From contig CAKZLZ010000018.1 of the NCBI GenBank assembly GCA_937127435.1, forward strand, positions 1 through 64,000: 64,000 nt of DNA. Direction: 5' to 3'. Origin of the DNA: an uncultured Verrucomicrobiota bacterium. GTDB taxonomy: Bacteria > Verrucomicrobiota > Kiritimatiellia > SS1-B-03-39 > UBA6053. Of the stretch, positions 15,812 through 43,544 are shown piece after piece. Numbering within the stretch: the stretch's first letter is position 1; each line of letters opens with the position of its first letter. Below the pieces are notes generated by a model. It did not search any database, was not told the origin of the DNA, and worked only from the letters and a program-made list of their open reading frames with translations. Position numbers and translations under genes: made by a program.

Positions 15812-15893
15812 GGGTTTGTATTGGATGTCCTTACAATAAGTGTTTTGATCCTTAGAACAGACTCTTCAAGAAAAAACCACCCAAGTAATTTTA

Positions 15894-16175
15894 TCAATTA
15901 TCACTCCACGTTTTCCATAATCCCCAAGAAACCATCATTAGTACCCCAAAATATACAGGGAGCACGGATAGCCCCAGTAGCGCAGCCGCATTACTTTTCG
16001 GCAGAACATATGCAGTGATTCCTATACAGAGTACGGCTACCATGACTGCAAGTTTTCTTCGATGGGTTGAATGCTCCCTTCGACTTCTATCTTGAATCAG
16101 CGCAAGCAATCTAATGAGCACCATCGCGACCATAAAAGCGGCCCCTATTACTCCAACAACATCTGGATTCGACAT
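15894..16175 (-). CDS. Small membrane protein
   Basis: 93 aa with three hydrophobic segments; upstream ACGGAG SD-like. Confidence 0.5.
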   Translation of the reverse strand: MSNPDVVGVIGAAFMVAMVLIRLLALIQDRSRREHSTHRRKLAVMVAVLCIGITAYVLPKSNAAALLGLSVLPVYFGVLMMVSWGLWKTWSDN

Positions 16176-16343
16176 GTTTCAGCTCCGTATGTGTTACGTT
16201 TCTAAAAGGTCAGTGTCTCATCCTTAACCTGAATTGGGTTTGTTCAACTTCTGAAATTTGTCTGAAAAGCTTAAGGATGCAGCCCTGTATCAAAAAATGT
16301 CAAAAAGCTCTTATCAGTAAAAGACTTTCTAGGTCTTGGTTTA

Positions 16344-17459
16344 TCATTTATTGAAAGTTTCGGCCCCATCACTTGTCCACAGAGCCACCTTAGCTGCATT
16401 GAATTCCAAAGCCCAATCATATTGTTTCATACTAGGGTTGTAGTTATGAATAACAACTTTCCCCATCATACCATCTTGATGCAGTGCTCCAAGCCTGGTT
16501 ATAAAAGAAGCCTGAGCACACAGAAACAAGTGTATTTCCGTCGAAATTTTGTTCAGACCAGTAAGTAAGTGCGCAACCTTCTTAGCCACGCCTGCTTGGA
16601 CGACCTCACAAGGCAAAGCATCATACTTACATTCAAAAGGTAATGACACATGTATAACCCTACCAACGAGGGCGGGTGGAAGCTCTGAATCCATTATATC
16701 CAGTGAAAAAGAAACTGCCACTCCCACAGGACCGTTTTCGGATTTTGATATTTCTTTTTGTATATCACTAAGTGTTTCATAGCCCCTGTATGAAAATACA
16801 GGTTCGACAGGACGACCGACATCATCAAGAATGACCCATTCATTCCTTTCTCGATTATGATCCATATATACTATTGGTAAATGTCCATCACGGAGCGTTG
16901 CTCCAATAACATACAATGACGGAACAGACCCGAGAGCGGCAACAAAAGCTTCTGTCGCCTCTGGATGCTCCATTCTCCTCATAATGCTTTGATGTACTCC
17001 AGGATACTCTCTGCAAATTGATGCCGGGTCACGCGAGTCTATGTAGTCGATATTTAGTGGAGAAGCAAAAGCGACTTTTTCTTTCGGTAAAGCATCCCGG
17101 GGCAAACTTGGGTTAGAATTTGGAAAACCTCTATAAAACAGCAACACCGAACCTCTTGATACATCGGCCTGATCTAACTGCCGATACCTTCGCATTAGCA
17201 GGAAACATCCAAGCAAGAATGTGATAAACCCAATTGAAAAAATTATTAACCCTACTCCACCTAAATCAAAATCCAGCAACAACGGTTCTTCCCCGAATCC
17301 AGGAATAATGAGCTTTAGAAAGAATGAAAACCCACCGCCCATCATCATGGCTCTTCCCGTTTTCACAAAAAATACTCCAATTCTACACCGAAGATCACCT
17401 TTATATTTCTTCCAAACTGCAAGAGCCTGATTTATCATCTGGAGTATCGAATCAGACAT
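16344..17459 (-). CDS. 2TM-SAVED domain CBASS effector (Cap14-like)
   Basis: Two N-terminal TM segments then SAVED-like region ending IHLFLCAQASFITRLGALHQDGMMGKVVIHNYNP; last gene of the CBASS operon. Confidence 0.75.
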   Translation of the reverse strand: MSDSILQMINQALAVWKKYKGDLRCRIGVFFVKTGRAMMMGGGFSFFLKLIIPGFGEEPLLLDFDLGGVGLIIFSIGFITFLLGCFLLMRRYRQLDQADVSRGSVLLFYRGFPNSNPSLPRDALPKEKVAFASPLNIDYIDSRDPASICREYPGVHQSIMRRMEHPEATEAFVAALGSVPSLYVIGATLRDGHLPIVYMDHNRERNEWVILDDVGRPVEPVFSYRGYETLSDIQKEISKSENGPVGVAVSFSLDIMDSELPPALVGRVIHVSLPFECKYDALPCEVVQAGVAKKVAHLLTGLNKISTEIHLFLCAQASFITRLGALHQDGMMGKVVIHNYNPSMKQYDWALEFNAAKVALWTSDGAETFNK

Positions 17460-17925
17460 ACTTCTCTCCTTGAGGTTGAACTCTTACAAGAGTTTCTTTT
17501 ATACCAACTATCACAAATACAAAGAGTCGTATTTGTGGATTACGTTTCACACACAATTCCCAATCCTCTAGGTCTTTTCGAGAAGGTACTGGAAAACAGC
17601 AGGGATGCGTATGCCAATTCCCGATGTAAAACCTTTCTCCGCCCGATTGCAGAAAAGCCCTTTGGACAGCTCGATCATGATGCTTTGACTTCATCACAAA
17701 ACCAGTTCTGCTACGCGTATCTTTAATTCCTGGACGTGTGCATTTATCGATCTGCATTCGGTCCAGATCCTCTGTGTATCCGCCTATCAATACCCCGCAA
17801 GCTTCAGAAGATTTGACATCATTCTGCACATATTTCGACCAAGTACGAAACACCGAGTCTGAGATATCGAGATCCACATCGAGACACCCCTCCCTTTTAA
17901 TGGGCACCCGATTACTGGCACACAT
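17452..17925 (-). CDS. cap3: JAB/JAMM deubiquitinase-like peptidase (CBASS Cap3)
   Basis: GNWHTHPCCFPVPSRKDLEDW JAMM motif; overlaps the ends of both neighbouring genes. Confidence 0.85.
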   Translation of the reverse strand: MCASNRVPIKREGCLDVDLDISDSVFRTWSKYVQNDVKSSEACGVLIGGYTEDLDRMQIDKCTRPGIKDTRSRTGFVMKSKHHDRAVQRAFLQSGGERFYIGNWHTHPCCFPVPSRKDLEDWELCVKRNPQIRLFVFVIVGIKETLVRVQPQGEKYV

Positions 17926-19618
17926 CACAGCCTCCGGTGTATAACGGCAGCTCTGTAAGAGCCCCCTCATTACTCTTATACCGCTCTGAAACATTCACAC
18001 TATGCTCATGGGCAAGTAAATCTGCTCCCCTCCAAGACAGCGAGATTCCATGAGGATACTTGCCAAGCAGACCGTTGATCCCAAGCCGAGTTGCCACAAC
18101 AGCGGTTTGTATTGCATCGACATTGGAATAGGAAATATACTCAAAACCGCATCCCGCATGACGGGTAACAACATATTGCCCTTCCTCAATAAAACTCAAC
18201 TTTGGATGAAGAGAAAACTGACAGGTTGCTTCATCTCGAAAAACACAAGACAAACAGCCCTCCTTACCAGGGATTGTTAGAGCGGCATGTCCTCCCAATC
18301 CATAAGCCTCCACCCAAGCTGACACTAGCATTGGCGGTTTCACTAAATCATACACCGCCTCGGTTATTCTTCGCTCCAGCGTCATGTTGCCGGTTGTTAG
18401 TATCACTAAATCAAATTCTTCAAGATTAGCAACCCCACCATTAACCTCAAAGCCATCGGACACATCAGTACATACCAAAAAAGGATATTTTTCTTCGAGA
18501 TATTTCCTTAATCCAAGTGACTTGGCCACCCCTATACAACGTGCATCCAAGATATGCCTATGGACATTTTCTGTTCTGAAATCTTCTCCATCAATCAGGT
18601 GAAGGTTACAAACGCCCGAAGAAGCAAGTTGGTCTGCCACATACCCACCAACACTTCCACAACCGATGACACACACCTTTGCATTATTCAGGCAAGTATT
18701 TGCACCACCTCGGGGTAAGAGTCTATTTTTAGAAATAGGAGTCTCCAGAAGCAATGGTTCAAATTTCCATCTGGATAATTCCTCTGAGCTTAGCCCCAAT
18801 TCTATCTTTTCTGGCGTACTACATAACAATGAAAACCATATTGGACCGTCTTTTGCATTACCAAAAAACACTATAATCAATTCCTTGGACTTATTTCTTC
18901 TAAAAACATCTCGTACATTATGTCGGAAAACAGCACTTTGCACGTTAAAGAGATGCATTATCCAAGATGCTATATCTTTACGTTCAGCAGGTGCCGGCAT
19001 CATCCTTTCAAGAGGTATAAGTAACCCTTTACCCTTTTCATTCCTTCCTGCACGCAGCCGCCAAACCCAGTTATTAATAGATTGGGATGGATTTTCACCA
19101 TGGACAACTCTGGCTTTATCTCGCCAGCCCTTTGCCCCCTTTTTCTCACTCAAACAATGCAAACGCTGGGGCAACTCGCCCGGCTCTGCAATGCAAAACA
19201 GCCTTTGTCCACTTTGAGACAGTCTCTGCCACATTGGCTGGAATTCGCTGATTAACTCAGCCGTATTCCACTTCGGATCAGATAATCCTTTCGATACAAT
19301 TTCAACCGCTTTTTTAAGGCCAGCAATTGCTACCGCTTCAGGATTATCATAATCAACGTTGAAAGATTGTGAGGTACCAATACAAATATCTCCAAATGAC
19401 GTCACATGAGCTATTTTTCCGAATGTATCATTACCACTGATAAGATAGACTAGCGGTTCAAATGGGAACCCCTGGTCAAGCCCCCATGAAAGAAGCTCAA
19501 ACTGTGCCTCAGCACTTACTCCATGTTGTGTTTTTACATATATTGAATCGGTTTCAGGGAGTACTGAGAAGCCATTTTTTTCATAGACCTTCCGTAACCA
19601 ATTGTTGTCATACTTCAA
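17912..19618 (-). CDS. cap2: E2-E1 fusion (prokaryotic E2 + ThiF adenylation domain; CBASS Cap2)
   Basis: VCVIGCGSVGGYVADQLASSGVCNLHLIDGEDFRTENVHRH ThiF core; GCLSCVF; upstream E2-like domain; directly abuts the CD-NTase stop. Confidence 0.88.
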   Translation of the reverse strand: MKYDNNWLRKVYEKNGFSVLPETDSIYVKTQHGVSAEAQFELLSWGLDQGFPFEPLVYLISGNDTFGKIAHVTSFGDICIGTSQSFNVDYDNPEAVAIAGLKKAVEIVSKGLSDPKWNTAELISEFQPMWQRLSQSGQRLFCIAEPGELPQRLHCLSEKKGAKGWRDKARVVHGENPSQSINNWVWRLRAGRNEKGKGLLIPLERMMPAPAERKDIASWIMHLFNVQSAVFRHNVRDVFRRNKSKELIIVFFGNAKDGPIWFSLLCSTPEKIELGLSSEELSRWKFEPLLLETPISKNRLLPRGGANTCLNNAKVCVIGCGSVGGYVADQLASSGVCNLHLIDGEDFRTENVHRHILDARCIGVAKSLGLRKYLEEKYPFLVCTDVSDGFEVNGGVANLEEFDLVILTTGNMTLERRITEAVYDLVKPPMLVSAWVEAYGLGGHAALTIPGKEGCLSCVFRDEATCQFSLHPKLSFIEEGQYVVTRHAGCGFEYISYSNVDAIQTAVVATRLGINGLLGKYPHGISLSWRGADLLAHEHSVNVSERYKSNEGALTELPLYTGGCDVCQ

Positions 19619-20644
19619 TTACGCACCAGAGGAAGGGATTGAAATTCCCGCAGACAACTGTTTCTCGGGTGCAGTATCCACCCCATCAGGAAAGTCATCA
19701 CCTAACTGCTCCTGAAGTTTTTCGCACTGCTTTTTCTCAGAAGTCATTTCAGAGACTTCATCCAATACGTCTTTGAGCCTTGATAGCCTGTTTCGAAGTG
19801 CATTAGCCACCTGGTCGCCCTTATCATTGAAAACGTCCCGTTGGGGGCTCACGGGAAGTTTTACACGCAGGCCATAGTTTCCACCGCCCTTAGGTGTGAA
19901 AAATTTATATGATTCCAACATATTGGATAGTGTATCTGACAAAGCTTTGTTGTCATCTCCATCACAATGCACGAAACTTTTCTTAGCCATGATAGTCAAA
20001 GCAATCGAAAATATTTTACTTCTTGCGTCTTCCGAGGTGTATTTCACGTTACGCCAGCGCTTCAGGTATCGCACCAGCCGAATGAACTGTTGCCGCTGAT
20101 TTGCGGTTAACGGGTTGAGTAAATTTTGATGATTATCAGTTGATTGAATCCATTCGACCAAACCCTTAGGATCTGAATTATCCCAGTATTTATTTCCAAT
20201 CAGAGCATTTTCCTTTCCGATGGCTAGATGGTAGTTCCCATAACTATCCACCTTAAAGGTTGTGAAATCAATATGGATAGGCGAGCCAATATAATCGGCT
20301 GTTACACAAGGCTTTTTTATCTTAGGCGCAGAGAAGCCATGCTTGCTTAGTACATCCTTTACAATTTTTTTCGGCTCAACAGCGTCTTCAGGTGCACTTT
20401 CATCAGATATGACCAAACCGCGATCAACATCATAATCTCTGTTTTTTGGAGGATGAATTCCAGTGTGGACTTTCATGGAGCCTAGGAGGATTTCTTCCAC
20501 AACTTCATATCCTTTTTCTTTGAAAGCAGCTTTGATTTTCGCCGTAATCAAGTTGTCTTTCTCGCGAGCGGCCCTGTACTCATCGGATTCACGCGTTAGT
20601 TTAATTTCTTCGTGAAATTTCAAATATTTAGATTGCAGTGACAT
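19619..20644 (-). CDS. CBASS CD-NTase (cGAS/DncV-like nucleotidyltransferase)
   Basis: LLGSMKVHTGIHPPKNRDYDVDRGLV active site (GS...DxD), HIDFTTF third acidic residue. Confidence 0.9.
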   Translation of the reverse strand: MSLQSKYLKFHEEIKLTRESDEYRAAREKDNLITAKIKAAFKEKGYEVVEEILLGSMKVHTGIHPPKNRDYDVDRGLVISDESAPEDAVEPKKIVKDVLSKHGFSAPKIKKPCVTADYIGSPIHIDFTTFKVDSYGNYHLAIGKENALIGNKYWDNSDPKGLVEWIQSTDNHQNLLNPLTANQRQQFIRLVRYLKRWRNVKYTSEDARSKIFSIALTIMAKKSFVHCDGDDNKALSDTLSNMLESYKFFTPKGGGNYGLRVKLPVSPQRDVFNDKGDQVANALRNRLSRLKDVLDEVSEMTSEKKQCEKLQEQLGDDFPDGVDTAPEKQLSAGISIPSSGA

Positions 20645-20884: not shown

Positions 20885-20997
20885 TTCATTTCTCCACGAT
20901 TTATTTTTGATTTTGTCACCCAAGCCATGCACAAGAACGCGCACACAATATTTGTGACCATACTAGTTTTTATTACCCTTGCATTTTCTGTTGTCAA

Positions 20998-21025
20998 GGT
21001 GTATACCCCAAATACTTTACACACC
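20998..21025. promoter_or_regulatory. Candidate operator between CBASS operon and WYL regulator
   Basis: Imperfect palindrome GGTGTATA-n12-TTACACACC (GGTGTnTA / TAnACACC). Confidence 0.4.
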
Positions 21026-21038
21026 CTACCCGTTCTTT

Positions 21039-21935
21039 ATGAATACATCTGAAAACGCATCCTCATTAAAACAACAGGAACGACTCCATTTCATTGAGTT
21101 TTGCCTATACTGGCATGGAGACATTAACCGAAACGACCTAATCAATCGTTTTCAGGTTTCCCCGGCCCAGGCAACCTTAGACCTAAAAGCATACCAAGAG
21201 GCTGCACCAGAAAATGTACAGTACAACGTAAGCACGAAACGGTACATTCCATCTTCTAGCTTTAGTCCCGTACTCATACAACCAAATGCTACTGATTACC
21301 TATCGACCCTTCTTCATACATCTGCTGCTACGAAAACAAATCACTTTGGGTTTTTCCCAGGAACAGAAACTCTTCCGCCGATTTACAGAAAGATAAAGCC
21401 GGAGACACTCCAATCAATCGTCCATTCAATGAAGTATGGTCACAGTGTGCATATACGACATCAATCTCCTTACAGCCCTGACAGCACGTTACGGCCAATT
21501 TACCCCAAAGTGTTCGTGTTTGCATTAGGTCGATGGCATCTTCGAGCATATTGCTTGCTCCGTAAAGATTTTCGAAGCTTTACTCTGGGGAGAATTCTAT
21601 CAGTTGGTTCAGCAGAAACTCTTACTGAATCGATTCCAACTGACACCAATTGGGATGCAATTGTAAAAGTATCCATCAAGCCAAGTGACACATTGTGTCC
21701 CGAAGGGCAAAAAATCATAGCGAGCGAATACAACATGAAAAAGGGAGTCGCTAAAATCCCTGTTAGAAGAGCACTGCTTAAATATTTTCTTTTCGAAAAC
21801 AGATTTTCTAGAAACCAACAAGCTGAACCCAGTTTAAAAATTAATCTCGCGGTAGACAACGGAATGATCGCACTTGCAAAACCTGATGTAATTCAGACCG
21901 AACTACAAACACTCTACGATACCCGAAATTCGTAA
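21039..21935 (+). CDS. HTH-WYL transcriptional regulator, CapW-like, divergent from CBASS
   Basis: N-terminal wHTH (FCLYWHGDINRNDLINRFQVSPAQATLDLKAYQ) plus WYL-like core (LRPIYPKVFVFALGRWHLRAYCLLRKDFRSFTLGRI). Confidence 0.8.
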   Translation: MNTSENASSLKQQERLHFIEFCLYWHGDINRNDLINRFQVSPAQATLDLKAYQEAAPENVQYNVSTKRYIPSSSFSPVLIQPNATDYLSTLLHTSAATKTNHFGFFPGTETLPPIYRKIKPETLQSIVHSMKYGHSVHIRHQSPYSPDSTLRPIYPKVFVFALGRWHLRAYCLLRKDFRSFTLGRILSVGSAETLTESIPTDTNWDAIVKVSIKPSDTLCPEGQKIIASEYNMKKGVAKIPVRRALLKYFLFENRFSRNQQAEPSLKINLAVDNGMIALAKPDVIQTELQTLYDTRNS

Positions 21936-26563: not shown

Positions 26564-27340
26564 TTATTCAGCCAAACCAACCTTCTTTTCAATCTTCAGG
26601 AGTAATCGTTGCATACACGGCATACACATCTTCCAATTCATGTCGATGTTCGCTTCCTCGCACCGAGGACAGGATTTGGTTTTCTTGGGTAGTTTTGAAC
26701 CCGGTGTTTTAGGCTTTTCACCTTTGAGCGTTTTATCAAACTCACGCTGGGCCTGTTGCTGACTAATTCGCTCGCTTCTTTGCCTCCCCTGCTCAATGTC
26801 CCGGGTAAATGCCTGCTCGACTGCCGCATGTCCTTTGGTTTGTTGAGCGTCCATTGAGGCATCAATCCGGTCTTCACGCTCTAAAGCTGATGAATGCATC
26901 GAACCAGCACTCCCCTGAAACGGCACCGTACCCGGCGTTCCATATCCTTGTATCCCTGTTACAGGGCGTGGCGGAGCTACCGGCTTCATGTTGTTCACAG
27001 GAAGCCCTCCTAGAGGAGATGATACAGGAGTATTATCTTGGCTTTGTTTTGGGTTTGAAAAATTCAGATGCTCCCCGCCAATTTTGGAACTACTCTCTTC
27101 TACAATGGATGGCTCACGTGCAGGCGGATGGATGGGTTCATTGAGCAGTCCATCAGCTCGGTATGCTGGAGCATCGTAGTTTGGAGCAAAAGTGTTTTCG
27201 GGTTGTGGATATGGAGGTGTGTCAGTAAACAAGGGTCCGCTAGCGGCATTGAGAGCCTGCATCACATCCGGGTTTGGAGGCTGAGTTGGAGTTAGGAACG
27301 GGTCGGGTTCCGGGAATAGGTTGATGTTTGAAAGACCCAT
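26564..27340 (-). CDS. Pro-rich protein with C-terminal zinc ribbon, last gene of the triad operon
   Basis: SCPRCEEANIDMNWKMCMPCMQRLL; SD AAGGAG. Confidence 0.6.
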   Translation of the reverse strand: MGLSNINLFPEPDPFLTPTQPPNPDVMQALNAASGPLFTDTPPYPQPENTFAPNYDAPAYRADGLLNEPIHPPAREPSIVEESSSKIGGEHLNFSNPKQSQDNTPVSSPLGGLPVNNMKPVAPPRPVTGIQGYGTPGTVPFQGSAGSMHSSALEREDRIDASMDAQQTKGHAAVEQAFTRDIEQGRQRSERISQQQAQREFDKTLKGEKPKTPGSKLPKKTKSCPRCEEANIDMNWKMCMPCMQRLLLKIEKKVGLAE

Positions 27341-27368: not shown

Positions 27369-28295
27369 TTAACGAATGTTACAAGCCATACAAGACCCGC
27401 ATCCTAACTGGGGCAACTGATGCACCGGGCACAGGTCATACTGTGCAATTCGGGCAAGGTGTTGCACTTCAGCCAAGACTTCAACCGGACTCGGACGAAG
27501 ATGTGGCTCCTTTCTGGTGCATTGATAGATTAACGGGTCAAAAAACCTTCCCACCCATGGCGTGAACTGGGATAAACTCATACCAGCACGACACACTCCG
27601 ACTTTTTTCGTGATAATTTTCTCAAGAGTTGCCCCCCAGCAATGAATCATTGTGGCATTTGACCTTGTGGGTCCTGCCATCTGTTCCGGGGCACAGTATG
27701 GTGCCGTATGCTCAGTACTCAGCTCCCCTTTTCTTCGCATACCGCCAAAATCACCGAGTGCGATGCGACGCGATCCTCCTCCGCGCATAAAGTAGTTTTC
27801 TGGTTTTATGTCATCTGAAATCATATACCTTGAATCGATCTCAACCATACTTCTGGATGTCGCCAAAATTATATTTAATATCCGACACGGTGAAATTTCG
27901 ATTCCAAGCAAGTTTCTTGCATACAGCTCCATGACTAGAACAAGAAATCGCCCTTGTGTAAAATGTTCGACATACAAGACTAGATGATTAAAACCTTTTG
28001 AAAATTTTGAATGAATATTGCACTCTCGTTGGTTCTTAGCAATATTTCGCATTACCTTGAGTGCATATGTATTGCCATCGAAAATATTTAGTGCCTTATA
28101 AATTGATGTTCCGTTTCCTTCACCGATTAAAGCCTCAACGCGGTAGTTGCCATACCATTTTTCATCTGTTTGATTGTCGGCTGGTGCTGAAGAGTATTTG
28201 AGCTTTGATACTGATGGGGATTTGGGAACTTGTGGCATAAAACCTGGTACCGGCAAGCCGGGTTGCTTAATCCACACAAATGGAAATGTTGACAT
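27369..28295 (-). CDS. Ser/Thr protein kinase with C-terminal Cys/His cluster
   Basis: LIGEGNGTSIYKAL...YALKVM; DDIKPENYFM; GDFGG; APEQM; C-terminal CPVHQLPQLGCGSCMAC. Confidence 0.85.
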   Translation of the reverse strand: MSTFPFVWIKQPGLPVPGFMPQVPKSPSVSKLKYSSAPADNQTDEKWYGNYRVEALIGEGNGTSIYKALNIFDGNTYALKVMRNIAKNQRECNIHSKFSKGFNHLVLYVEHFTQGRFLVLVMELYARNLLGIEISPCRILNIILATSRSMVEIDSRYMISDDIKPENYFMRGGGSRRIALGDFGGMRRKGELSTEHTAPYCAPEQMAGPTRSNATMIHCWGATLEKIITKKVGVCRAGMSLSQFTPWVGRFFDPLIYQCTRKEPHLRPSPVEVLAEVQHLARIAQYDLCPVHQLPQLGCGSCMACNIR

Positions 28296-28318: not shown

Positions 28319-29251
28319 TTATGGTGCAACAGGGAGTCGCGAATATACTGGCGCAAGCACCAACTTCTGACGATGCCAGTTGGCTTCCCTTAATGAACAG
28401 AACTTCTCATCTTCATTGATCTGGGAGTCGCCACCCTTTCCTTCTTCCGGCTCCAGCGGTATGTCAGATACATCAGAAGCATCAGCCTCAACAGCAGGGG
28501 AAGCGATCGTAGGCTCCTCCATTACTGCTTCCTTCGGGTTTTTCACTTCATTATCCAAATCATCCTCTATGAATACTTGGATTACCGATGCATTATCCGT
28601 AAGCTCTGCATCAGGAATATTATCGAAGCGTTCTATGCTTGGTGGTTCTTTTTCAGGGTTATTAAAAAGCGGGAGCGCACCATCAGTACACAGATACAAA
28701 GCCTCTCCTGCTTTCAGCGTTACGTTAGTGGAATCTGGCGAAAGCATATGTTCGTGTTCGCCGATGAATCGTGTCAATGCATCTCCAGATACAGCACCCG
28801 TTCTTTCGCGATATACCTCATCCGCATTTACGTTATGAGGTTTGGTTAGCAACCGGCATCCGCTATCAGTTTGTAAAATTGCAGGACTATCACCAAGCCA
28901 TGAAATTCCGACTTCACCTTGAGCATTTGCAACAGCCACGAGTAGTGTTGCCCCGGGCTCTTCCAAAGTGTCATGTAACCGAAGCCCGCAGACTTGAGCG
29001 TACAGTGCACATTCCTTTGCAATGCGTTCTAAGGTAAAGGCGTTTGTATTTCCTTTGATTCGCCTCAAAAATGCTTTGAGTACCGCCCAAATTACGGCTT
29101 GCGCCGTAGCTCTCCCATTTTCCATACCACCCATACCATCACTAACTATAAGCAATGAGAGGCCTGCATAAATGATCCGAAAGATACAGTCTTCTTGACA
29201 TGACCTCGGTCCCTTTCGGGACCGGGCACGATGTTTTAGTATAACTGACAT
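28319..29251 (-). CDS. PP2C (PPM) family protein phosphatase with acidic C-terminal tail
   Basis: QEDCIFRIIYAGLSLLIVSDGMGGMENGRATAQ; WLGDSPAIL; start overlaps the vWA stop (TAATG). Confidence 0.85.
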   Translation of the reverse strand: MSVILKHRARSRKGPRSCQEDCIFRIIYAGLSLLIVSDGMGGMENGRATAQAVIWAVLKAFLRRIKGNTNAFTLERIAKECALYAQVCGLRLHDTLEEPGATLLVAVANAQGEVGISWLGDSPAILQTDSGCRLLTKPHNVNADEVYRERTGAVSGDALTRFIGEHEHMLSPDSTNVTLKAGEALYLCTDGALPLFNNPEKEPPSIERFDNIPDAELTDNASVIQVFIEDDLDNEVKNPKEAVMEEPTIASPAVEADASDVSDIPLEPEEGKGGDSQINEDEKFCSLREANWHRQKLVLAPVYSRLPVAP

Positions 29252-29994
29252 TAGACTAACCCCTTCAAGAGATCCAAAACCGCTTCAACGGCTTTTCTTA
29301 CGCTCTCCTCCTGACCCAGCATTGACGCACTTTCATCAATCATTAGGATCACCGAAATGCCATTACCTACAGTTGCACTTTTGGTGGTGCGTTCCGTCAT
29401 TTTGGTAAGCGCTTCTTTAATATTTGAAACACCAGTGGTTTCCACGTAGGAAGGAGCTGAAGCAAGGCCTTCCAACACCTGTTTGTCAGTAACACCAAGA
29501 CCAATAACTGTCATCAGCATACCTTTATCAATAGCTTCAGTAGTAGCATCTTCAGCATCTTCTTGCGGAGTTTTGCCTGGCATTTCAGCGTCTGTGGCAC
29601 CGCCATCAGTGACTACTATACCGATATGTTTTGCAGCAGGAATTTTGAGGTTTTCTGCTGCCCCATGTCGTATAGCTTTCGCAGTTCCAGTTCTGCCACT
29701 AGGTCGAATAGTTTCGATATGGCTAATGTCATGCACTGGCTGCATTGGGTTCCCAATACGTGAGTCATGGTTAAAGTAATTGACACCCAGCCATACAGTT
29801 GGTCGATAGGAAGTAAGGCCTTCTTGCAAGGGTTGACCGGGCATTTCATCCTTTTGCGACATACGTTTGCCTGCCGCCTGCGTAACGCGCGGAGTGGAGT
29901 CGATATCAAGCGACTCTTTTACTGGTGTATAGCACTGCGGGCAACTTGCCGCGTCTGCATCCAGCATCTGGTTACATTTTTCACATGCATTCAT
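29251..29994 (-). CDS. Zinc-ribbon protein with circularly permuted von Willebrand A domain
   Basis: N-terminal CEKC...CPQC; order T-motif SGRTGTAKAI, then IVVTDGGATD, then C-terminal VILMIDESASMLGQEESVRKAVEAVLDLLKGLV. Confidence 0.8.
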   Translation of the reverse strand: MNACEKCNQMLDADAASCPQCYTPVKESLDIDSTPRVTQAAGKRMSQKDEMPGQPLQEGLTSYRPTVWLGVNYFNHDSRIGNPMQPVHDISHIETIRPSGRTGTAKAIRHGAAENLKIPAAKHIGIVVTDGGATDAEMPGKTPQEDAEDATTEAIDKGMLMTVIGLGVTDKQVLEGLASAPSYVETTGVSNIKEALTKMTERTTKSATVGNGISVILMIDESASMLGQEESVRKAVEAVLDLLKGLV

Positions 29995-30141: not shown

Positions 30142-32058
30142 TTATGCAAAAAGTTTTTCTTGGACGGCTTGCAGTAGGTCTTTTGGGACTACTGCTTTAA
30201 CTCTTGTTGTATCTACCCCGTTTGTCCGCAGCTCTTTTTTTACACGCATGAGGACCGCTTTATTTGGGCATAAAATGATAACATGCTCCCAGCTCTCAAG
30301 ATTGTGTTCAGCTTGCATGCTTTCGGTTGCCTGCGTTGACAGACACACTTCGATTGCAACGGTCAACTCAGCTTTCGTCCCACACCCAACATCAACTGAT
30401 TTTTTATTTCGGTATACTTCGAGTTCCGCTACCACTCCATTTTTATGTAACATATCCCTCACCCATGTTTGAATCAGAACATGTTTAATTCCTGTCCCTC
30501 CCCTGGAAGTCGGTTTATTCACACCAAGCACTTTGTAGCCGTCTTCGTTCAAAAACATCCATTGAGGAGGCTTACCTCGGCCCAACATTTGAAACGGAAG
30601 TAATTCGACAAGCTTTTGCTGTACCAGACGCTCAAGCTCTGGTTTCTTATACCTCCAGTTCCAACCCTTCGTTTTGCAAAGCTGCGTCAGCCCCACGTAC
30701 GGACACGCTTGAATTGCGCGAAGCAGTTCAATTTCTACCGGTGGCTGTAAGGGGTTTGCCGAAGCAGTCACCATACTAGGAGGAAGCGGAACCGGTGAGC
30801 CCAAAGACTGATTTTCTTGCTGCACTGTTTTTGAAATAGCAACTGATTGCGGAAGCCGCACCAGTTGCTTTGGCGTGCCCGGAGGCACATGCTCCCAAGT
30901 CACAATAACCGGTTGAGTAACATTTGCTACCCGCAGAATCCCGTGTCCGATTGGTAGCTGTGGGATAATGTCTTGCTGAGACCTTGTGAGTGATGCAAGC
31001 CGTCCAGCTTGTGCCACGTCCTTGTCGTTTACCGTTCGAAGAATCAACGTTGTAAAAACATTACTGAGGATGATTGGGTTAAACACCTGCAATGAATGCG
31101 CCCCTAATACGATTTGGATATTCGAGCCCCTAGCGACGCGGATAAACTGACTGATTGGGGATGGAGTGTTGTATTTATCCTGCACCAACTCGCTCGCTTC
31201 ATCAATTATGATTGCATGCATACCCGCGTCTTGAGCTTGCTCCTTTTGGGATTTCACCATTTCCATGAGTGCAGCTGTGTAAAACGCACCGGACTTTTTT
31301 GAGCACAGAGCCGTACAGACAAAACAGTGATCAGGGATTTTGGCCATCGGTTTGTTTTGCGCAAGCGAAGCTCCGAGCGCGTCAGTGTGTAACTCATAGA
31401 GACTCGCATAGAGACTGAGGAACAAATCCTTTCGAAACAATTTGAGCATGCGCTTCTCGGGGTCTTCAAGATAGGCGATGATGTTTGCAAGCGTAGGATT
31501 TTTCAGCCGCTCATGAATTTTTTGAAACAGCACTGCCGAGTCGTGCCGCTCAAGCACAGTTCGAATTAGTCCGGCAAGTACCGCTCCGGACAAACTGGTA
31601 AACGGGTCAGGGATCTCATCCGTACACCCCACATAAATACAATGCGGGTTTGTTTTCATGGTCTCTATGAGTCCTTCGTTTTTTTGAGAAATAATGAGAC
31701 ACGCTCGAAGTAATTCCCCAAGCAACTTTATGATTGTTGTTTTCCCACTCCCTGTGGAGGATGCAAGCACCATACCCTTGTCCAAATGTTTCGACTCTAA
31801 CGCAACCGACGTTCCTTTTTCGGCTGAGGTAAATACCGGGAGATCCCCAGCTGGCCATTGTATTTCAGGTCGAAACGGCGCGAAGATATCAATTTCGCCT
31901 TCGAAGCGTTTATCCTCATACATCTCGATAAGTTGATGTAAATGACGGATTGATAGCTGGTCGCCGTATCTTATTTGCGCAATGAGCATTTTCCCGAGCG
32001 GACAAGAATCTTCGTTCAGCCCATAGGTAATCGCCTGCTTAATGAGGTCGTCGTACAT
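30142..32058 (-). CDS. HerA/FtsK-like P-loop ATPase with C-terminal wHTH and PD-(D/E)xK-like nuclease region
   Basis: SSTGSGKTTIIKLL Walker A; HAIIIDEASELV Walker B; C-terminal VVAELEVYRNKKSVDVGCGTKAELTVAIEVCLST; ATG 32058 preceded by ACGGAG. Confidence 0.75.
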   Translation of the reverse strand: MYDDLIKQAITYGLNEDSCPLGKMLIAQIRYGDQLSIRHLHQLIEMYEDKRFEGEIDIFAPFRPEIQWPAGDLPVFTSAEKGTSVALESKHLDKGMVLASSTGSGKTTIIKLLGELLRACLIISQKNEGLIETMKTNPHCIYVGCTDEIPDPFTSLSGAVLAGLIRTVLERHDSAVLFQKIHERLKNPTLANIIAYLEDPEKRMLKLFRKDLFLSLYASLYELHTDALGASLAQNKPMAKIPDHCFVCTALCSKKSGAFYTAALMEMVKSQKEQAQDAGMHAIIIDEASELVQDKYNTPSPISQFIRVARGSNIQIVLGAHSLQVFNPIILSNVFTTLILRTVNDKDVAQAGRLASLTRSQQDIIPQLPIGHGILRVANVTQPVIVTWEHVPPGTPKQLVRLPQSVAISKTVQQENQSLGSPVPLPPSMVTASANPLQPPVEIELLRAIQACPYVGLTQLCKTKGWNWRYKKPELERLVQQKLVELLPFQMLGRGKPPQWMFLNEDGYKVLGVNKPTSRGGTGIKHVLIQTWVRDMLHKNGVVAELEVYRNKKSVDVGCGTKAELTVAIEVCLSTQATESMQAEHNLESWEHVIILCPNKAVLMRVKKELRTNGVDTTRVKAVVPKDLLQAVQEKLFA

Positions 32059-32077
32059 GTTTGATAAACTCCGTATG

Positions 32078-32467
32078 TTAGGCATTCCAAATGGCTTTCA
32101 AAAATGCCCAGACTTTCTTTTTTCTCCGACTCTTTTTTTCTTCCGGCCAGCACTGTGTGCAGTACGTTTTGTTTTCTTCCTGAATGTGTTTTCCTAGAGA
32201 ATTCAGGCTGAAGCGTTTAAAGCATGTTGTGCAAGCAAATGTATTTCGAGCGTCAACAATGTCGCCTGTACACGGGTCCTTGAACAAAATCGTTTGATCA
32301 TTGATTTGGTCGCCGCTATCTAGGTGCCTGATTATTTGAATCGTTTCTGTGTGTATTATACCATTTACCATTGTTGAAAGAGACTCTGTCCCACCGACAA
32401 CAGGATTACTGGGATCTACTGGCAAGAAGACCCGTTTAACTTTTTGAATTTGTTTTGGCGTTGTCAT
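32078..32467 (-). CDS. Small zinc-ribbon protein
   Basis: CTTCFKRFSLNSLGKHIQEENKTYCTQCW. Confidence 0.55.
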   Translation of the reverse strand: MTTPKQIQKVKRVFLPVDPSNPVVGGTESLSTMVNGIIHTETIQIIRHLDSGDQINDQTILFKDPCTGDIVDARNTFACTTCFKRFSLNSLGKHIQEENKTYCTQCWPEEKKSRRKKKVWAFLKAIWNA

Positions 32468-36069: not shown

Positions 36070-36333
36070 AATTAAAGGTCCCTTAAATTTTATTCATAAC
36101 AATTTAATTTGTTAAAGCACTTTCCCTCATTCCCGACTTCTCCATCATCCGATTCTCGAGTCGCCGATTTTCTTTCCTGCTTGCTGTGCCCGCTCCAGGG
36201 TTCATCAATCTTTTGGCAAAGGGCTCTTTTCTTTTCATACCCCTTTTTGCAACACCCCGCCCGCCCGGTAAAGCATATTCTTGAGCCCTAAAGCCGAAAA
36301 GCTCTGTGACCCCGTCGCTCTTTTGCACACGCA

Positions 36334-36749
36334 TGAAAGAAATCTTCGAACTACGAGAATCGGACTTCATCAAAACGTCCGTAACGACACCACGAGCACT
36401 CTTCGCTCAGACAAAGAAAATACACATCGACCACGACCAAGAATGCGTCATCGTCTTCTACATGGATTCGAGACACAACGTGAAACAAGCAGAGGTGCTC
36501 TTCAAAGGCGGACTTGACCGAACGCTCATTGACACCAAGACACTCTTTAGACGTGCTATAGAACAAAAGGTTCCTTTAATTGCACTCGCGCACAACCATC
36601 CAAGCGGGAATTTGTCACCTTCAGACGCAGACATCCAGGTCACACACGGGATAGCGAACGCAGGCGACCTACTTGGAATCGATTTGGTTGACCACATCAT
36701 CTTTAATCGAGCTGAGTTTTACTCGATGAGGGAGGGGAACTTACTTTGA
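36334..36749 (+). CDS. radC: RadC-like JAB domain protein
   Basis: VPLIALAHNHPSGNLSPSDADIQVT JAMM motif and RadC context. Confidence 0.88.
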
Positions 36750-37021
36750 GTTCCTTTCTCTTTTCTCCCACCCACTCTGGGATTGCGAATGGATGTAAAC
36801 CCACAGATGACCTCCTTGAGGTATTCGTCGATTGGAATGGGGATGTCATCACATGCAGGGCGACCGGAAAAAGCCTTGTTAGAACGCCAGAAGGGCATGC
36901 CGTGCGTGAAATTATCGCCAAAGCCATTATGCGACTCACCGAATGGGAAGAAAAACCACAGGCACGCATCACCTTACAAATCGTCGCTTTTGAGGAGTTT
37001 AAGGAGGCGACGCCTCCTTAA
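36746..37021 (+). CDS. Hypothetical protein, coupled to radC
   Basis: Overlaps the radC stop. Confidence 0.4.
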   Translation: MSSFLFSPTHSGIANGCKPTDDLLEVFVDWNGDVITCRATGKSLVRTPEGHAVREIIAKAIMRLTEWEEKPQARITLQIVAFEEFKEATPP

Positions 37022-37094
37022 ATTTTTAGTTTGTTTCGCGGACTGGCCAACGTGCAGGAATCGATTTATAAACCCCAGAGCCTCTACAAACAGC

Positions 37095-37544
37095 ATGGGA
37101 CTACGCAATCTCACCGTTGATGAAGTAATTTGGATGAACCGATTTGTCCTCGAAAAATTTCCGGCAAAACGTGCAGACCAGCACGAAGTATTGAATTATA
37201 CTGGCTTACAAGAGCTAATACAGTCTATCCGCCATAGTCGTAAGCATTTTTATGCAAAAACCACCTTGCTCTTAATTGGCCTTGTTCAAGGGCACTTTTT
37301 TGCCAGCGGTAATCGCAGAACAGCCCTTCAAGCAGTAGGGACCTTTGCCACGCTAAACCGACGAAAAGTTTATATATGGCGTATACGTTTCATACGTCAG
37401 GTACTTATTGGTATCCGTGAGCGGTATTACAGTGATGAAGAAATCAAAATGTGGGTCAAACAAGGGGACATTCGTCCATTCAACCGATTTCAAACCCCCA
37501 GCAAAGGTACAAAAAATCGCTCGAAACGTATCAAACAAGCATAA
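37095..37544 (+). CDS. Fic/Doc-family protein
   Basis: LTVDEVIWMNRFVLEKF...; GHFFASGNRRTALQA matches HxFxxGN(K/R)R. Confidence 0.75.
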   Translation: MGLRNLTVDEVIWMNRFVLEKFPAKRADQHEVLNYTGLQELIQSIRHSRKHFYAKTTLLLIGLVQGHFFASGNRRTALQAVGTFATLNRRKVYIWRIRFIRQVLIGIRERYYSDEEIKMWVKQGDIRPFNRFQTPSKGTKNRSKRIKQA

Positions 37545-37641
37545 AGAGATTTTTAATCTCGTTGCGCGAATGTGAAATTAAACAAATAAGGTCCTCAAAG
37601 AAATTCTTGTGATTTTTGACAAAAAGTGAAAAGTTTCACAC

Positions 37642-38376
37642 ATGAGCACCACTCACAATCAACACGCCTGTCATCTTTGCCATAAGGTTTCAGGATTATC
37701 ACGCTCACACATTATACCAAAATTTGTTTACAAGCCATGTCTTTATAAAAACGATAAAAATAGATTTTGGGTACTTTCTTCAAATCCAGAATCTCCAGAA
37801 CGCCCTGAGCAACGACAGATAAGAGAACGGATACTCTGCAAGAGCTGTGAGATACATGTCGGAAAATATGAAACTTATGCAAGCAAGTTGTTTAATCTTT
37901 CGATTAAAGACCCATACCAGGAAGGGAAATTAATTTCATTTCCCCAGGTGGATTACACAAGCATTAGGCTTTTCTACTTATCCATACTTTGGCGTATGTC
38001 GGTAAGCAATCACTCATTCTTTGATGAAGTAAATCTAGGCAAACATGAACAAATTCTTCGAAAAAAATTGTTGGCAGGAGAGGCCCCTGCATCAGACCGT
38101 TATTCATTTTGGTGCACTGTCCCCTTAGTCGAAGGAAATTTTCATTCCGATTGGATACTTCAACCTCAGCGCATCAAACTCGCAGGGCAAACTGCATACA
38201 GGATGATTCTCAATGGTATCCTAGTTATTTTCATGGTTTCGTGCACGCGAGTTCCATCGTCGCTTCGACCCTTGATTTTGGAAAGAGAAGGAACATGGAG
38301 ACTGTTAGTTAAACCAGCAGAAGAAATTGAATTTTTGAAGAGCTGGATTCTAGCAACCCAGAAGATTAACAGCTAA
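37642..38376 (+). CDS. HNH/treble-clef-like protein
   Basis: CHLCHKVSGLSRSHIIPKFVYK...ILCKSCEIHVGKYETYASKLF. Confidence 0.6.
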   Translation: MSTTHNQHACHLCHKVSGLSRSHIIPKFVYKPCLYKNDKNRFWVLSSNPESPERPEQRQIRERILCKSCEIHVGKYETYASKLFNLSIKDPYQEGKLISFPQVDYTSIRLFYLSILWRMSVSNHSFFDEVNLGKHEQILRKKLLAGEAPASDRYSFWCTVPLVEGNFHSDWILQPQRIKLAGQTAYRMILNGILVIFMVSCTRVPSSLRPLILEREGTWRLLVKPAEEIEFLKSWILATQKINS

Positions 38377-38383
38377 CTTTTAT

Positions 38384-38770
38384 TTAAGCAGATTCTACAG
38401 CTGTATACCCTCTACCTGTTAAGGTATACGTCTCTAACGTTGTCCCAGACTCAAAGGTTTCTTGCCTAACTAAACCTTTACGCTTCAAACCTTCAAGGGC
38501 ATCAAGATATTCGGCTGAGAGCTTTCTATCGTTATTTGAAGGAAGGTCAACATCGCCACTTCTCACCCACCTACCAACGCCGTCAACCTTCATGACTGCG
38601 ATTCCACATGGATGGTCAACGGCATGACCTAAAATCTCCAACTCCATTTCGGTAGGTTTGGAGTCTGCGAAGTTTAAGAAAAAAGTACCAATATCTTTTA
38701 TGAGTTGCCACATAGGGCTAGGAATAACGTCTACCTGCTCACACGCAAGCAAGAAGAATTCCCAATGCAC
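38384..38770 (-). CDS. Hypothetical protein
   Basis: 128 aa, tightly packed with 38776..39237. Confidence 0.5.
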   Translation of the reverse strand: MHWEFFLLACEQVDVIPSPMWQLIKDIGTFFLNFADSKPTEMELEILGHAVDHPCGIAVMKVDGVGRWVRSGDVDLPSNNDRKLSAEYLDALEGLKRKGLVRQETFESGTTLETYTLTGRGYTAVESA

Positions 38771-38775
38771 TTCCC

Positions 38776-39237
38776 TTATTGCATCCGTGATTGTTCTCGT
38801 GCACGGGTAAATTGCCGGTAGAGGTTCTGCACAAAGGTTGTCGCACTATCTCCGGACAAGATTTGAATCGCAGAGCCTTTGAAGTGTGGGTTTTCGAGAT
38901 ACAACTTGTGAGCCTCAGAGCTTGTTAGAATCACGGCCTTGTATGGCGGGTCGTCAGTAAGTGAGAACGCGTACCGAATGGTTGTGCTGATTTCGTTATC
39001 CTCATCACTAAGAAATTCAGGAACAGGAACCACTTTAAACGCCGCTTTGATTTTCCCCACCGAGTGGCTTACGTCTCCAATTTTTTTAAACTCAACATCA
39101 AGCACCGTGTTATGAAATTCTTTGATATGGGCTGAGGTAAGACGGATTCGCAGTAACTGTAAGAGCACGGCCTGCTCTGTTTCCGAGAAGAATGCTGCAT
39201 CTGCAACAAAAAGATGAGAGTACGGGATTTTATTCAT
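38776..39237 (-). CDS. Hypothetical protein
   Basis: 153 aa, abuts 39238. Confidence 0.5.
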   Translation of the reverse strand: MNKIPYSHLFVADAAFFSETEQAVLLQLLRIRLTSAHIKEFHNTVLDVEFKKIGDVSHSVGKIKAAFKVVPVPEFLSDEDNEISTTIRYAFSLTDDPPYKAVILTSSEAHKLYLENPHFKGSAIQILSGDSATTFVQNLYRQFTRAREQSRMQ

Positions 39238-39441
39238 TTATAATGCCGCAAATACCTCGTCCGTTACTTCTTCAATGCTAAGAATTTCGATTGGCGAATT
39301 GATTGCTTTATCCACCTTTACGATTGCATCGTCTTCAATTCCCATCAACATTTGGTATAATGCATCCGAGCATTTCACGTCTGGATTGTTTTGCAAAAGT
39401 GCTTTAGTATCTTCTGCTAGTTCAAAGTCAGTGTATGCCAT
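39238..39441 (-). CDS. Small hypothetical protein
   Basis: Start MAYTDFELAED at 39441, 27 nt from the centre of TTATATAT. Confidence 0.45.
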   Translation of the reverse strand: MAYTDFELAEDTKALLQNNPDVKCSDALYQMLMGIEDDAIVKVDKAINSPIEILSIEEVTDEVFAAL

Positions 39442-39463
39442 ACTCTTGTAATACCGCTCTTCC

Positions 39464-39474
39464 TTATATATTTT
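39464..39474. promoter_or_regulatory. Candidate bidirectional TATA-like promoter
   Basis: TTATATATTTT with start codons at 39441 (-) and 39495 (+) at equal distance. Confidence 0.4.
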
Positions 39475-39494
39475 GCGTATGAACCCCAGTAACA

Positions 39495-40862
39495 ATGAGA
39501 AACCAAATGGATGAAATTGGCTTTAGAATCAGGAAACTTACCGAGGATGACTTTGACCAGATGATTTTGGCATCCGGGGGGAAGCGACTCGAGGAGAGCG
39601 ATGTCAAAACGGCAGATTACTTACTTGGTGATTCTGTAATCGAGTTAAAGTTAATTGATGAGGAGGGACTGGAGAAGACCAGTAGACAAAAGAAACTCGC
39701 TAAACTATTTATGGAATCCCGACCAAACCGTCCTGTCATACCTTTGACTCCACACATTCTCAGCGAGACGGATAAGCGTTCCTATTACAATATTCTGCGC
39801 GGACCAATTCAAACTCAAGTCAAGAAGGCCGCAAAACAGCTTGAAGCCACCAGAGCACGAGAAGCCGTAACATCTAGAATTTTGATAATCATCAATAATG
39901 GTTACGCCGCTTTACATCATGATGAATTTACGAAAGTAGTACTTCAGTGTGTTCAACACGACACATCTAAAATTGACACGGTCTTGTGCGGAGGAATCTA
40001 TTTTTACAGTGCATGGCCTGATGGTTACGTATTTCCTCATCTAGATATTCACCCTATCTCCCTCCAAAAGCCACACCTCTCCCTTGAACCATTTATGAAA
40101 GCGTGGAATAAATTTGAGGGCAATCTAATGAAAGATATGATGGTCAACCAAATTAAAAACCATTCAGATGGGCGACCACCAGTGCTGGATATACCCTTCA
40201 AGGTTGATGGTGTAACTTTCGTAAAGCCCGCCCGCAAAATGGGGAAACCATCTCCCTTATGGCCTAATGGTATTCGTCCACGGAATAATACTTCATCAGT
40301 CCAAGGGCCCCAGCCGGTCGCCCTAACGTTTCCATCTCTTTCAAAAGAAGAGTGGCTAAATGTAAAAGCCGTAATCCCTGAAGCCACCATTCTCATGGAC
40401 ACATTCGAAGAATGGCAATCATTTGAGCGCGATGAAGAAGCCGATGTCACCGACCCTCTAAAACTTTTCGTCACTCAGAAAGTCACCTGCGAAGATTGGA
40501 GAATATGGTGCAGAGAAACAGGAGAAATTGAATCATATAAATCGTTGCACATGTATTCGGAACACATTTTTAACAATGCATGCGGGACTTTGATGCGAAA
40601 CGCTATAAGCATTGAAAATCACAGACTGTTTATCCCTGAATATGTAAGAGTAGAAACCGAAGAAATTGGGCTTGATATGGCAAATGATGTCTCATCAGCT
40701 CACCTAGTTTGTGAACGGGAAGGACTTAAAAGTAAAACTCCATTGTTTGAGAATCTACAGATATTTCATGAGCACGCAGTATGCCTCGGTGCTGCATATG
40801 CTGTAAAGCATAACATCCCTGCCGTTCGATACCATGTAGATAAAACCTATGGAGCGGAGTAA
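39495..40862 (+). CDS. Putative PD-(D/E)xK-like protein
   Basis: 455 aa; N-terminal VKTADYLLGDSVIELKLIDEEGLEKTSRQKKLAK. Confidence 0.55.
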   Translation: MRNQMDEIGFRIRKLTEDDFDQMILASGGKRLEESDVKTADYLLGDSVIELKLIDEEGLEKTSRQKKLAKLFMESRPNRPVIPLTPHILSETDKRSYYNILRGPIQTQVKKAAKQLEATRAREAVTSRILIIINNGYAALHHDEFTKVVLQCVQHDTSKIDTVLCGGIYFYSAWPDGYVFPHLDIHPISLQKPHLSLEPFMKAWNKFEGNLMKDMMVNQIKNHSDGRPPVLDIPFKVDGVTFVKPARKMGKPSPLWPNGIRPRNNTSSVQGPQPVALTFPSLSKEEWLNVKAVIPEATILMDTFEEWQSFERDEEADVTDPLKLFVTQKVTCEDWRIWCRETGEIESYKSLHMYSEHIFNNACGTLMRNAISIENHRLFIPEYVRVETEEIGLDMANDVSSAHLVCEREGLKSKTPLFENLQIFHEHAVCLGAAYAVKHNIPAVRYHVDKTYGAE

Positions 40863-40937
40863 GATTCAAATTTCATCCATTAGCTTTTTTCTGTCACCGA
40901 AACGAAAAGTCGAAACCCCTTTGCTTCCAAAAACCAC

Positions 40938-41252
40938 TTACCCCAACACCCAATCAATCTTACTCTCCAAGGTGCGCCGCCCCCGCAAATCAAGTGGAGG
41001 TGTTTTAGCAAGCTCGATAATCTTGTTTGCAGTATCTACATCGTATTGATTGACGGGATTTTCAGCCATGCTGTAATCAGCGTAAGGCGAAAAATGGTTC
41101 GCACATAACAACTTACTTTTCTCCCATGTCTCATTGCAAAAATCCTGATACAAGAACCGGAACTGGTGCAGTTGCGAGTATGTCAGCTCGTTGAGCAAGC
41201 GATTATGAATACCTTCCATTTCGGTAGCTAGATTTCGATTTAGTTCATTCAT
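40938..41252 (-). CDS. Hypothetical protein, paralog of 32800..33090
   Basis: See paralog; SD AAGGAA. Confidence 0.55.
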   Translation of the reverse strand: MNELNRNLATEMEGIHNRLLNELTYSQLHQFRFLYQDFCNETWEKSKLLCANHFSPYADYSMAENPVNQYDVDTANKIIELAKTPPLDLRGRRTLESKIDWVLG

Positions 41253-41364
41253 TTTTGATTCCTTTGGATTCCGAATGGAGGTTCCATTGTAAGCTAACCC
41301 ACTTGAAACTATTCATTTTTGTTTCTGAATAATTCCTGAACTGTAAAAGAGCCTTTTCCCCTCT

Positions 41365-42210
41365 TCACTCCCGCTTCTCATCCAAAATATAATCCACTGC
41401 TTTTTGGGCTGTCCCAGACGCTTGGATAATCCACTTCGTGTTACCTGACTTGGAGAGCACATCCGCCCATCCCTTGATATAGGACGCACTTTGTTCCTGC
41501 GTCACATCAAGCCCGGTGTGGGCACACAGATACGCACTACCAAGCTCGGCCACCAGCTCTTCATACGAATACGCCTTCTCCCGCTCACCTTTCGGCTTAG
41601 CAAACGAATGCGGTCTACCTACTCGAGAGTCATGTCCAGTTGCGTGCACCAACTCATGAAACAGCGTCGAGTGATACCGCCCTGGTTTGAACACCGATTC
41701 CGGTGGCATCCGCACCAAATCTTCGAGTCTACTGTATGAGGGGTGATGCAGTTTTGCATGCTCGATTTGTGGCGGGTTTGGCATCCTTCTAACCGCCTGT
41801 TCTGCTTTAAGCACTGCCTCTTCAAGCCCAGGCTTTTTTCGAGGTTCAGGGAGTGGCACATCCTTTGTTTGGTTTGCATTAAAGACCGTGTAATTTTGCA
41901 AATACATCTTAGTCTCTTCTGCCCCCGTCAGTTCATTTTGTGTGTCATAGGTTCCGTATTTGATAATCCGGGTTCCCTTCTCTCCTTTCCTGATGTAGCC
42001 ACCCTTGTCTTTGGCCTGCTTATAGGTCAGCCAGTAAGGAGACTCAAACCTAGTGTTTCCTAAAAGCCACACATTCACCCCCCGGTACGTTCGACCAGTC
42101 GCAAGCGACGTTGGTAACCCGAACTCTGTGATGCATGGGTTTTGCCACGGAACGACTCCAGCGTCCAGCTGTCTTAGTATCCGGTCAGTGACCTCTTTAT
42201 ATCGTGTCAT
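41365..42210 (-). CDS. ardC: ArdC-like antirestriction protein (ssDNA-binding N-terminus + zincin)
   Basis: RYKEVTDRILRQLDAGVVPWQNP; YWLTYKQAKDKGGYIRKGEKGTRIIKY; HSTLFHELVHATGHDSR. Confidence 0.9.
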   Translation of the reverse strand: MTRYKEVTDRILRQLDAGVVPWQNPCITEFGLPTSLATGRTYRGVNVWLLGNTRFESPYWLTYKQAKDKGGYIRKGEKGTRIIKYGTYDTQNELTGAEETKMYLQNYTVFNANQTKDVPLPEPRKKPGLEEAVLKAEQAVRRMPNPPQIEHAKLHHPSYSRLEDLVRMPPESVFKPGRYHSTLFHELVHATGHDSRVGRPHSFAKPKGEREKAYSYEELVAELGSAYLCAHTGLDVTQEQSASYIKGWADVLSKSGNTKWIIQASGTAQKAVDYILDEKRE

Positions 42211-42895
42211 CGGGTCGAGCAGTCTTGGTAGGACTTGCTCCACCAGCGTTCCTATGTGGTACATGGACCAGCAAACAATCCTCCTTAAAGTGTGCGATTA
42301 TGTTGTCCCGTATAAAGTCGGGTAGTTGTTTCGATGTGATGCATTCGCCTTCCCCCAGTTCCAGGACTGAGAGCGGAACGGCAAAGAGCCGTTTTCCGCA
42401 GATACTCAGGTTCGGCTCCATCGAATAGAGCATGCGACCAAACGCCATTCCGGGCGGAAACCACCGTGGGGTAGCGTCTTCCCGCCCTGCTCGATAGTGA
42501 ATATTTTCCGCTTCGAAAGTTCGGTCGTGTACTGCATGAGCATGCGTAGATTTTGGAGCTTCCCCATACGCCCGATACGATTCGTTTTTGCCTGCATCGC
42601 TCGCATCGTTCGCCTCGACCGCTGTTGTTCCAGCTGATGTTCCAGCTGACGCTCCAGCGCTTGTTTTGTTCGAACCAGTTTCGGTCAGTTCGGGGTGTGC
42701 TCCAGTTGTTTTTCGTCCAGTCCCAAGCCCTCTTGTAGAGGAAGCGTGTATAGTTTTTTTGAGACTGGAATTTTTTGCGACTCTTTCCTTTTTCGTCGCC
42801 TGCCCACCTTTCGACTTCGTCTGTCGGCGTTTCTTTAGTGCAGATGTAGCCGATTGCCTCTCAATCGCCCTGTCTGCGTTTTTGGTTTTACTCAT
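42197..42895 (-). CDS. Hypothetical basic protein with SAGT repeats
   Basis: 232 aa; overlaps the ardC start. Confidence 0.5.
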   Translation of the reverse strand: MSKTKNADRAIERQSATSALKKRRQTKSKGGQATKKERVAKNSSLKKTIHASSTRGLGTGRKTTGAHPELTETGSNKTSAGASAGTSAGTTAVEANDASDAGKNESYRAYGEAPKSTHAHAVHDRTFEAENIHYRAGREDATPRWFPPGMAFGRMLYSMEPNLSICGKRLFAVPLSVLELGEGECITSKQLPDFIRDNIIAHFKEDCLLVHVPHRNAGGASPTKTARPDDTI

Positions 42896-43540: not shown

Positions 43541-43544
43541 CTAT

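Follow-up and report, generated by a model that had tools for sequence, protein, structure and literature searches.

The 247-aa protein encoded at 29251-29994 on the minus strand of the window (the whole stretch of 64,000 nucleotides analysed here, from an uncultured Verrucomicrobiota bacterium) is quite probably a natural circular permutant of a TerY-type vWA domain, and the vWA member of a TerY-P-type triad. The permuted fold taken by itself is the firmest part of this reading and we regard it as highly probable, because the rotation tests, a relative with the same order and operon, and the AlphaFold model of that relative support it. That the protein belongs to the triad by function is likely, and a defence role is proposed tentatively, with chances a little below even. 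In our judgement the protein represents a TerY vWA with a genuinely new connectivity, its function being deduced from its neighbours alone. The vWA fold is one of the most widely distributed, occurring in integrins, von Willebrand factor, proteasome Rpn10, and bacterial chaperone partners.

Gene and domain layout of the putative permuted vWA protein

The genes and domains concerned are the following.

29251..29994, minus strand: permuted vWA protein, 247 aa, with the layout zinc ribbon, linker, vWA strands 2-6, strand1/helix1
29920..29985, minus strand: N-terminal zinc ribbon (CxxC...CxxC), residues 4-25; Pfam DZR E 0.004, four Cys kept in the relative
Residues 26-60 of the 247-aa protein: linker
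29377..29805, minus strand: vWA strand 2 to helix 6, residues 64-206, with MIDAS residues T102 and D130; PF00092 positions 68-166 and TerY alignment
29257..29358, minus strand: C-terminal vWA strand1-helix1, residues 213-246, with MIDAS residues D220, S222 and S224; VWA_2 positions 1-32 and TerY alignment
28319..29251, minus strand: PP2C-type Ser/Thr phosphatase; PF13672 E 6e-13, metal-binding Asp residues conserved in the alignment
27369..28295, minus strand: Ser/Thr kinase with a C-terminal zinc-ribbon-like Cys cluster; PF00069 E 7e-15
26564..27340, minus strand: 258-aa protein, C-terminal zinc ribbon, encoded by the next gene in the putative operon; DZR E 0.02 only
30142..32085, minus strand: upstream P-loop ATPase with weak HerA/MAD8-like matches; AAA_22 E 9e-5, PADLOC mad8 E 3e-8
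16344-20644, minus strand: CBASS operon of oligonucleotide cyclase, E1-E2 fusion, JAB protease and SAVED-2TM effector

The open reading frame reported in the first-pass annotation is real, running from 29994 to 29251, with a stop codon two codons 5' of the ATG (stop-to-stop 249 aa). A plus-strand reading of the same interval was rejected, since many stops occur on that strand. The first-pass annotation had also considered the end of the frame genuine because it overlaps the PP2C start, and this holds: the vWA stop codon and the PP2C ATG share one base (GTCTAATGTCA), and the flanking frames contain no piece of a vWA domain. The peptides it had quoted were found in the same order, i.e., a beta2-like segment, the Thr motif, TDG, and at the C-terminus DxSxS, which strand1-helix1 carries as DESASM. 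The zinc ribbon cysteines are C4, C7, C18, and C21. In Pfam, positions 68-166 of the PF00092 (VWA) profile matched residues 90-193 (E 9.7e-9) and positions 1-32 of VWA_2 matched residues 215-243 (E 0.006), so that the order is reversed relative to the profile. Among the 17 vWA matches in the genome, this protein is the only one that starts at profile position 68 and has the start of the domain at its C-terminus. The canonical segment order begins with strand 1; having strand1-helix1 at its C-terminus, the protein counts as a permuted variant rather than an ordinary vWA member. All five MIDAS residues (D220, S222, S224, T102, and D130) are retained, from which a metal site is predicted. NCBIfam and PADLOC provided no useful name for the protein, the latter giving no match.

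Rotation tests

Joining the C-terminus to the N-terminal part had been proposed to restore the canonical order, and Pfam, PDB profile searches and hhalign all agree with this. Upon rotation, the PF00092 score of the window protein rose from 36.1 bits over profile positions 68-166 to 40.7 bits in a continuous match over 2-166, and that of the relative from the UBA6053 genome (see below) from 38.1 bits over 37-165 to 46.4 bits over 4-165. As a control, an ordinary vWA from the same genome was artificially permuted, and its PF00092 score fell from 76.5 bits to 64.5 bits, split over two stretches. A rotated profile made from the two sequences matched 63 PDB chains; among the matches listed nearly all were vWA or integrin I domains, and many were continuous from strand 1 through TDG. 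With the native-order profile 16 chains were found, and the vWA ones were matched in short or partial stretches only. Finally, hhalign against a profile of six ordinary TerY/YegL proteins gave a single alignment from strand 1 to strand 5 for the rotated order (97.6%, E 3e-12), compared to an alignment from strand 2 onward only for the native order (91.8%, E 7e-7). Thus, the comparison of native and rotated profiles suggested by the first-pass annotation favors the rotated order. The hhalign E value for the rotated order and a YegL match point toward TerY, but the rotated profile matches other vWA groups too.

Instead of a displaced strand1-helix1, the C-terminal DxSxS-like segment could be a chance resemblance within a partial, MIDAS-less vWA-like domain. 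The VWA_2 match is by itself weak, and in a rotation scan with a home-made vWA profile the window protein gained nothing (23.3 to 24.0 bits, no clear peak), both of which fit this explanation; the same scan gave a clear peak for the relative (51.1 to 60.1 bits). However, the C-terminus of the relative (FALVMDVSGSM...AELRNL) is 52% identical to strand1-helix1 of E. coli YegL over 29 residues, the segment is modelled as a strand and a helix with a pLDDT of about 83-94, and the D, S, S, and M are invariant in the two permuted and six TerY proteins, leaving chance resemblance extremely improbable. In this joint alignment with six ordinary TerY proteins all MIDAS residues are invariant, whereby D26, S28, S30, T95, and D132 of the first TerY correspond to D220, S222, S224, T102, and D130 of the window protein.

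A relative in UBA6053

A search for homologs with the same order, as recommended in the first-pass annotation, yielded a single relative, a 267-aa protein with 29% identity (E 2e-5) encoded in a genome of the same genus, Verrucomicrobia bacterium UBA6053. It has the same zinc ribbon, with all four cysteines conserved, and the same permuted segment order, and the spacing between helix 6 and strand 1, about 10 residues, is similar in the two proteins. Its gene is followed by a PP2C gene and then by a gene for a Ser/Thr kinase that ends in a zinc ribbon, matching the gene order in the window. A frameshift as source of the rotated order was rejected on these grounds, and the shared order, ribbon, and neighbours likewise speak against truncation or an assembly fragment. 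Moreover, two copies that have diverged this far and still share boundaries and operon exclude an assembly error or recent gene breakage.

These findings bear on the outcome that the first-pass annotation had named as fatal to its proposal, in which the ORF is a truncated piece of a tandem-vWA protein. Such a piece, left by decay or wrong assembly, would consist of a first domain without its start and a second domain without its end and would have exactly the observed order, and duplicated TerY-like vWA genes are known to occur near TerY-P systems (PMC11090510), with two vWA genes also present at locus L063. This origin is nevertheless very unlikely. The relative in another genome has the same boundaries and ribbon followed by PP2C, both permuted proteins retain all MIDAS residues, and the permuted chain of the relative is predicted to fold as one domain. 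In addition, the frames are closed on both sides in the window: PP2C follows directly, and no second DxSxS or second strand 2 occurs in any frame up- or downstream of the vWA ORF.

Profiles were searched against overlapping sets of Verrucomicrobiota genomes (288, 388, 345, and 384), which covered the class, the phylum, and a second class, and no third permuted member was found; since few candidates were scored per genome, rare and distant members may be missed in such searches. Phyla beyond Verrucomicrobiota were covered by pattern scans only. Single-sequence searches of genome contigs, viral contigs, plasmids, and phages revealed no permuted relative, and the sole plasmid match was a vWA of ordinary order. 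The two known permuted members are both from Verrucomicrobiota genomes.

Predicted structure

The AlphaFold modelling proposed in the first-pass annotation gave a confident model for the domain of the UBA6053 relative but not for the 247-aa protein itself, for which a two-sequence alignment resulted in an uninformative pLDDT of 46, with helices falling where a vWA has them. For this reason, we infer the fold of the window protein from its relative. The alignment for the relative contained 12 rows: the two permuted proteins, and five ordinary TerY proteins of viral contigs, each cut into a strand1-helix1 fragment and a fragment from strand 2 onward. The model reached a pLDDT of 86.0 and a pTM of 0.83, with all five models at 83.8 or higher. 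By our own assignment of the elements, the model contains beta2 (19-26), beta3 (30-38), a helix (56-69), beta4 (74-81), a helix (100-113), beta5 (116-123), a helix (132-138), beta6 (144-147), a helix (152-164), beta1 (173-180), and helix1 (190-207), so that the strands follow the order 2-3-4-5-6-1 along the chain. The C-terminal strand and helix are formed in the model, and the pTM and pLDDT suggest that strand 1 docks. The canonical strand1-helix1 fragments were placed by the alignment at the C-terminus and may have led AlphaFold to recall the vWA fold in part; since none of the rows from the ordinary proteins held both segments, the docking does not come from their covariation.

The terminal strand-helix unit is one that could easily be exchanged, and strand1-helix1 might be donated to a neighbouring subunit, giving a domain-swapped oligomer and not a monomeric permutant; two sequences are uninformative on whether the contact is intra- or intermolecular. 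Against such a swap, the relative was modelled as a monomer, in a single chain with the pTM given above, and the short link from helix 6 to strand 1 is alike in both proteins. Altogether, we consider a swap improbable, if the least so of the three alternatives, and a monomeric permutant the preferred reading.

A chain-order Foldseek search of the relative's model against the PDB found vWA domains with a probability of 1.00 and 20 significant matches, with query-normalised TM scores of 0.38-0.52 and mostly high rmsd. A partial sequential match to solved vWA domains (best TM 0.52) is what a permutation predicts and, as far as the model goes, the picture is that of vWA-like parts in a different connectivity. 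The viral models gave a similar picture, and no permuted vWA was evident among the Foldseek matches listed for the PDB and viral models. The new chain ends presumably lie on the face opposite the metal site, going by established vWA topology. The termini of vWA domains are close together in space, as far as described in PMC3919171, so that a permutation of this kind would be sterically easy.

Phosphatase, kinase, and surrounding island

The PP2C phosphatases of the window and UBA6053 are 32% identical (E 4e-24) and the kinases 31% (E 5e-29). Conserved residues of the window kinase include K, DDxKPxN, DFG, and C289/C299/C302/C305; the Cys cluster is conserved in both kinases, and that of the relative has a weak DZR match (E 0.006). 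Catalytic residues are conserved in PP2C and kinase, and the pair may act as a phosphorylation switch. The 258-aa zinc ribbon protein was not found beside the UBA6053 relative. The upstream P-loop ATPase is a possible operon member that is not conserved with the triad of the relative; by eye its C-terminal region resembles a PD-(D/E)XK nuclease. Within the class, even the nearest relatives of the window PP2C and kinase are distant, and a local vWA profile detected no vWA beside them, hence the two look like a lineage of their own, and no ordinary-order ancestor of the window triad was found among them. In a genome of the same family, a protein with two tandem kinase domains adjoins a PP2C gene (L110:5372-7390).

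The triad sits on an island with a tyrosine recombinase (integrase), RadC, ArdC, and HerA, and the complete CBASS operon lies about 7 kb from it. A WYL-domain regulator at 20979-21935 adjoins the CBASS operon. The recombinase, HerA, ArdC, and RadC (window 36285-49250) are 53-77% identical to those of the UBA6053 relative's island (L029/L030), compared to 24-33% for the triad genes, and thus the triad diverged faster than the island backbone or moved on its own. Gene order around the triad differs between the window and the UBA6053 island. The latter (L029) also encodes a TIR protein with DUF4062 and a reverse transcriptase, at 3217-4071 and 15891-17669, which is defence-like cargo.

Proposed mechanism and significance

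In the proposed permutant, fusion of the old N- and C-termini would connect helix 6 to strand 1, and the new chain ends would lie in the former helix 1-strand 2 loop, resulting in the order strand 2 to helix 6 followed by strand1-helix1. Strand 1 may then take its usual place in the sheet, with the C-terminal DxSxS, Thr102, and Asp130 still forming one metal site (MIDAS). The protein could be a metal-dependent ligand-binding adaptor that binds a partner through this site and is controlled by the adjoining kinase and phosphatase, which would determine whether the vWA protein, the kinase, or an effector is phosphorylated. The zinc ribbon, now attached at strand 2, might tether the complex or sense metal; the permutation would thereby have kept the metal site and moved the attachment point. 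The role proposed for the protein is that of a switch for a stress or anti-phage response on a mobile defence island. We give about even chances to the idea that the permuted vWA has been kept functional in a mobile triad, with the ribbon at a new edge and helix 1 as a free, controllable C-terminus. If true, helix 1, which adjoins the metal site, could come under the control of the kinase, the phosphatase, or a partner.

With its MIDAS kept, a permutant of this kind would demonstrate that a break between helix 1 and strand 2 is compatible with the site, something useful in engineering, and it offers a compact case to test the role of the vWA in TerY-P triads. A further consequence is that profile searches that depend on segment order can truncate or miss permuted members.

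Comparison with known systems

The first-pass annotation knew of no described permuted TerY-type vWA, and the literature searched, outside subscription journals, contained no natural circular permutation of a vWA domain. The TerY-P triad consists of a TerY-like vWA, a PP2C, and a Ser/Thr kinase with a C-terminal zinc ribbon (PMC11090510), and a TerY-like vWA, PP2C, and Ser/Thr kinase are encoded together both in the window and in UBA6053. As in TerY-P, the three components of the window form one same-strand cluster with the vWA directly upstream of PP2C, the kinase has a C-terminal Cys cluster, the full DxSxS...T...D motif is present, and an ATPase and defence genes are nearby. Unlike TerY-P, the window vWA is permuted, carries its own N-terminal zinc ribbon, and has no counterpart in PADLOC; for the PP2C and kinase, the relatives found are only distant. 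An ordinary-order triad with TerY directly upstream of PP2C is found in the same class at locus L063. There (110-6728), inspection by eye showed a further vWA gene, longer than the first, as well as a kinase and an FtsK-like ATPase with this triad.

In E. coli, PphC dephosphorylates the kinase YegI (PMC13232886), and yegL lies directly upstream of pphC. The window shares the order vWA, PP2C, kinase with YegL-PphC-YegI of E. coli K-12, where yegJ intervenes, whereas YegL has the ordinary order and lacks a zinc ribbon; the window PP2C and kinase showed no significant match to PphC and YegI. Compared to Pfam VWA (PF00092) and VWA_2, the window protein has the profile segments and MIDAS residues, but its segments are circularly rotated. 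Circular permutants of another fold are known in the cpRAS GTPases, in so far as PMC2430557 describes them, and like these, the window vWA has a rotated motif order with the fold apparently kept, albeit a different fold.
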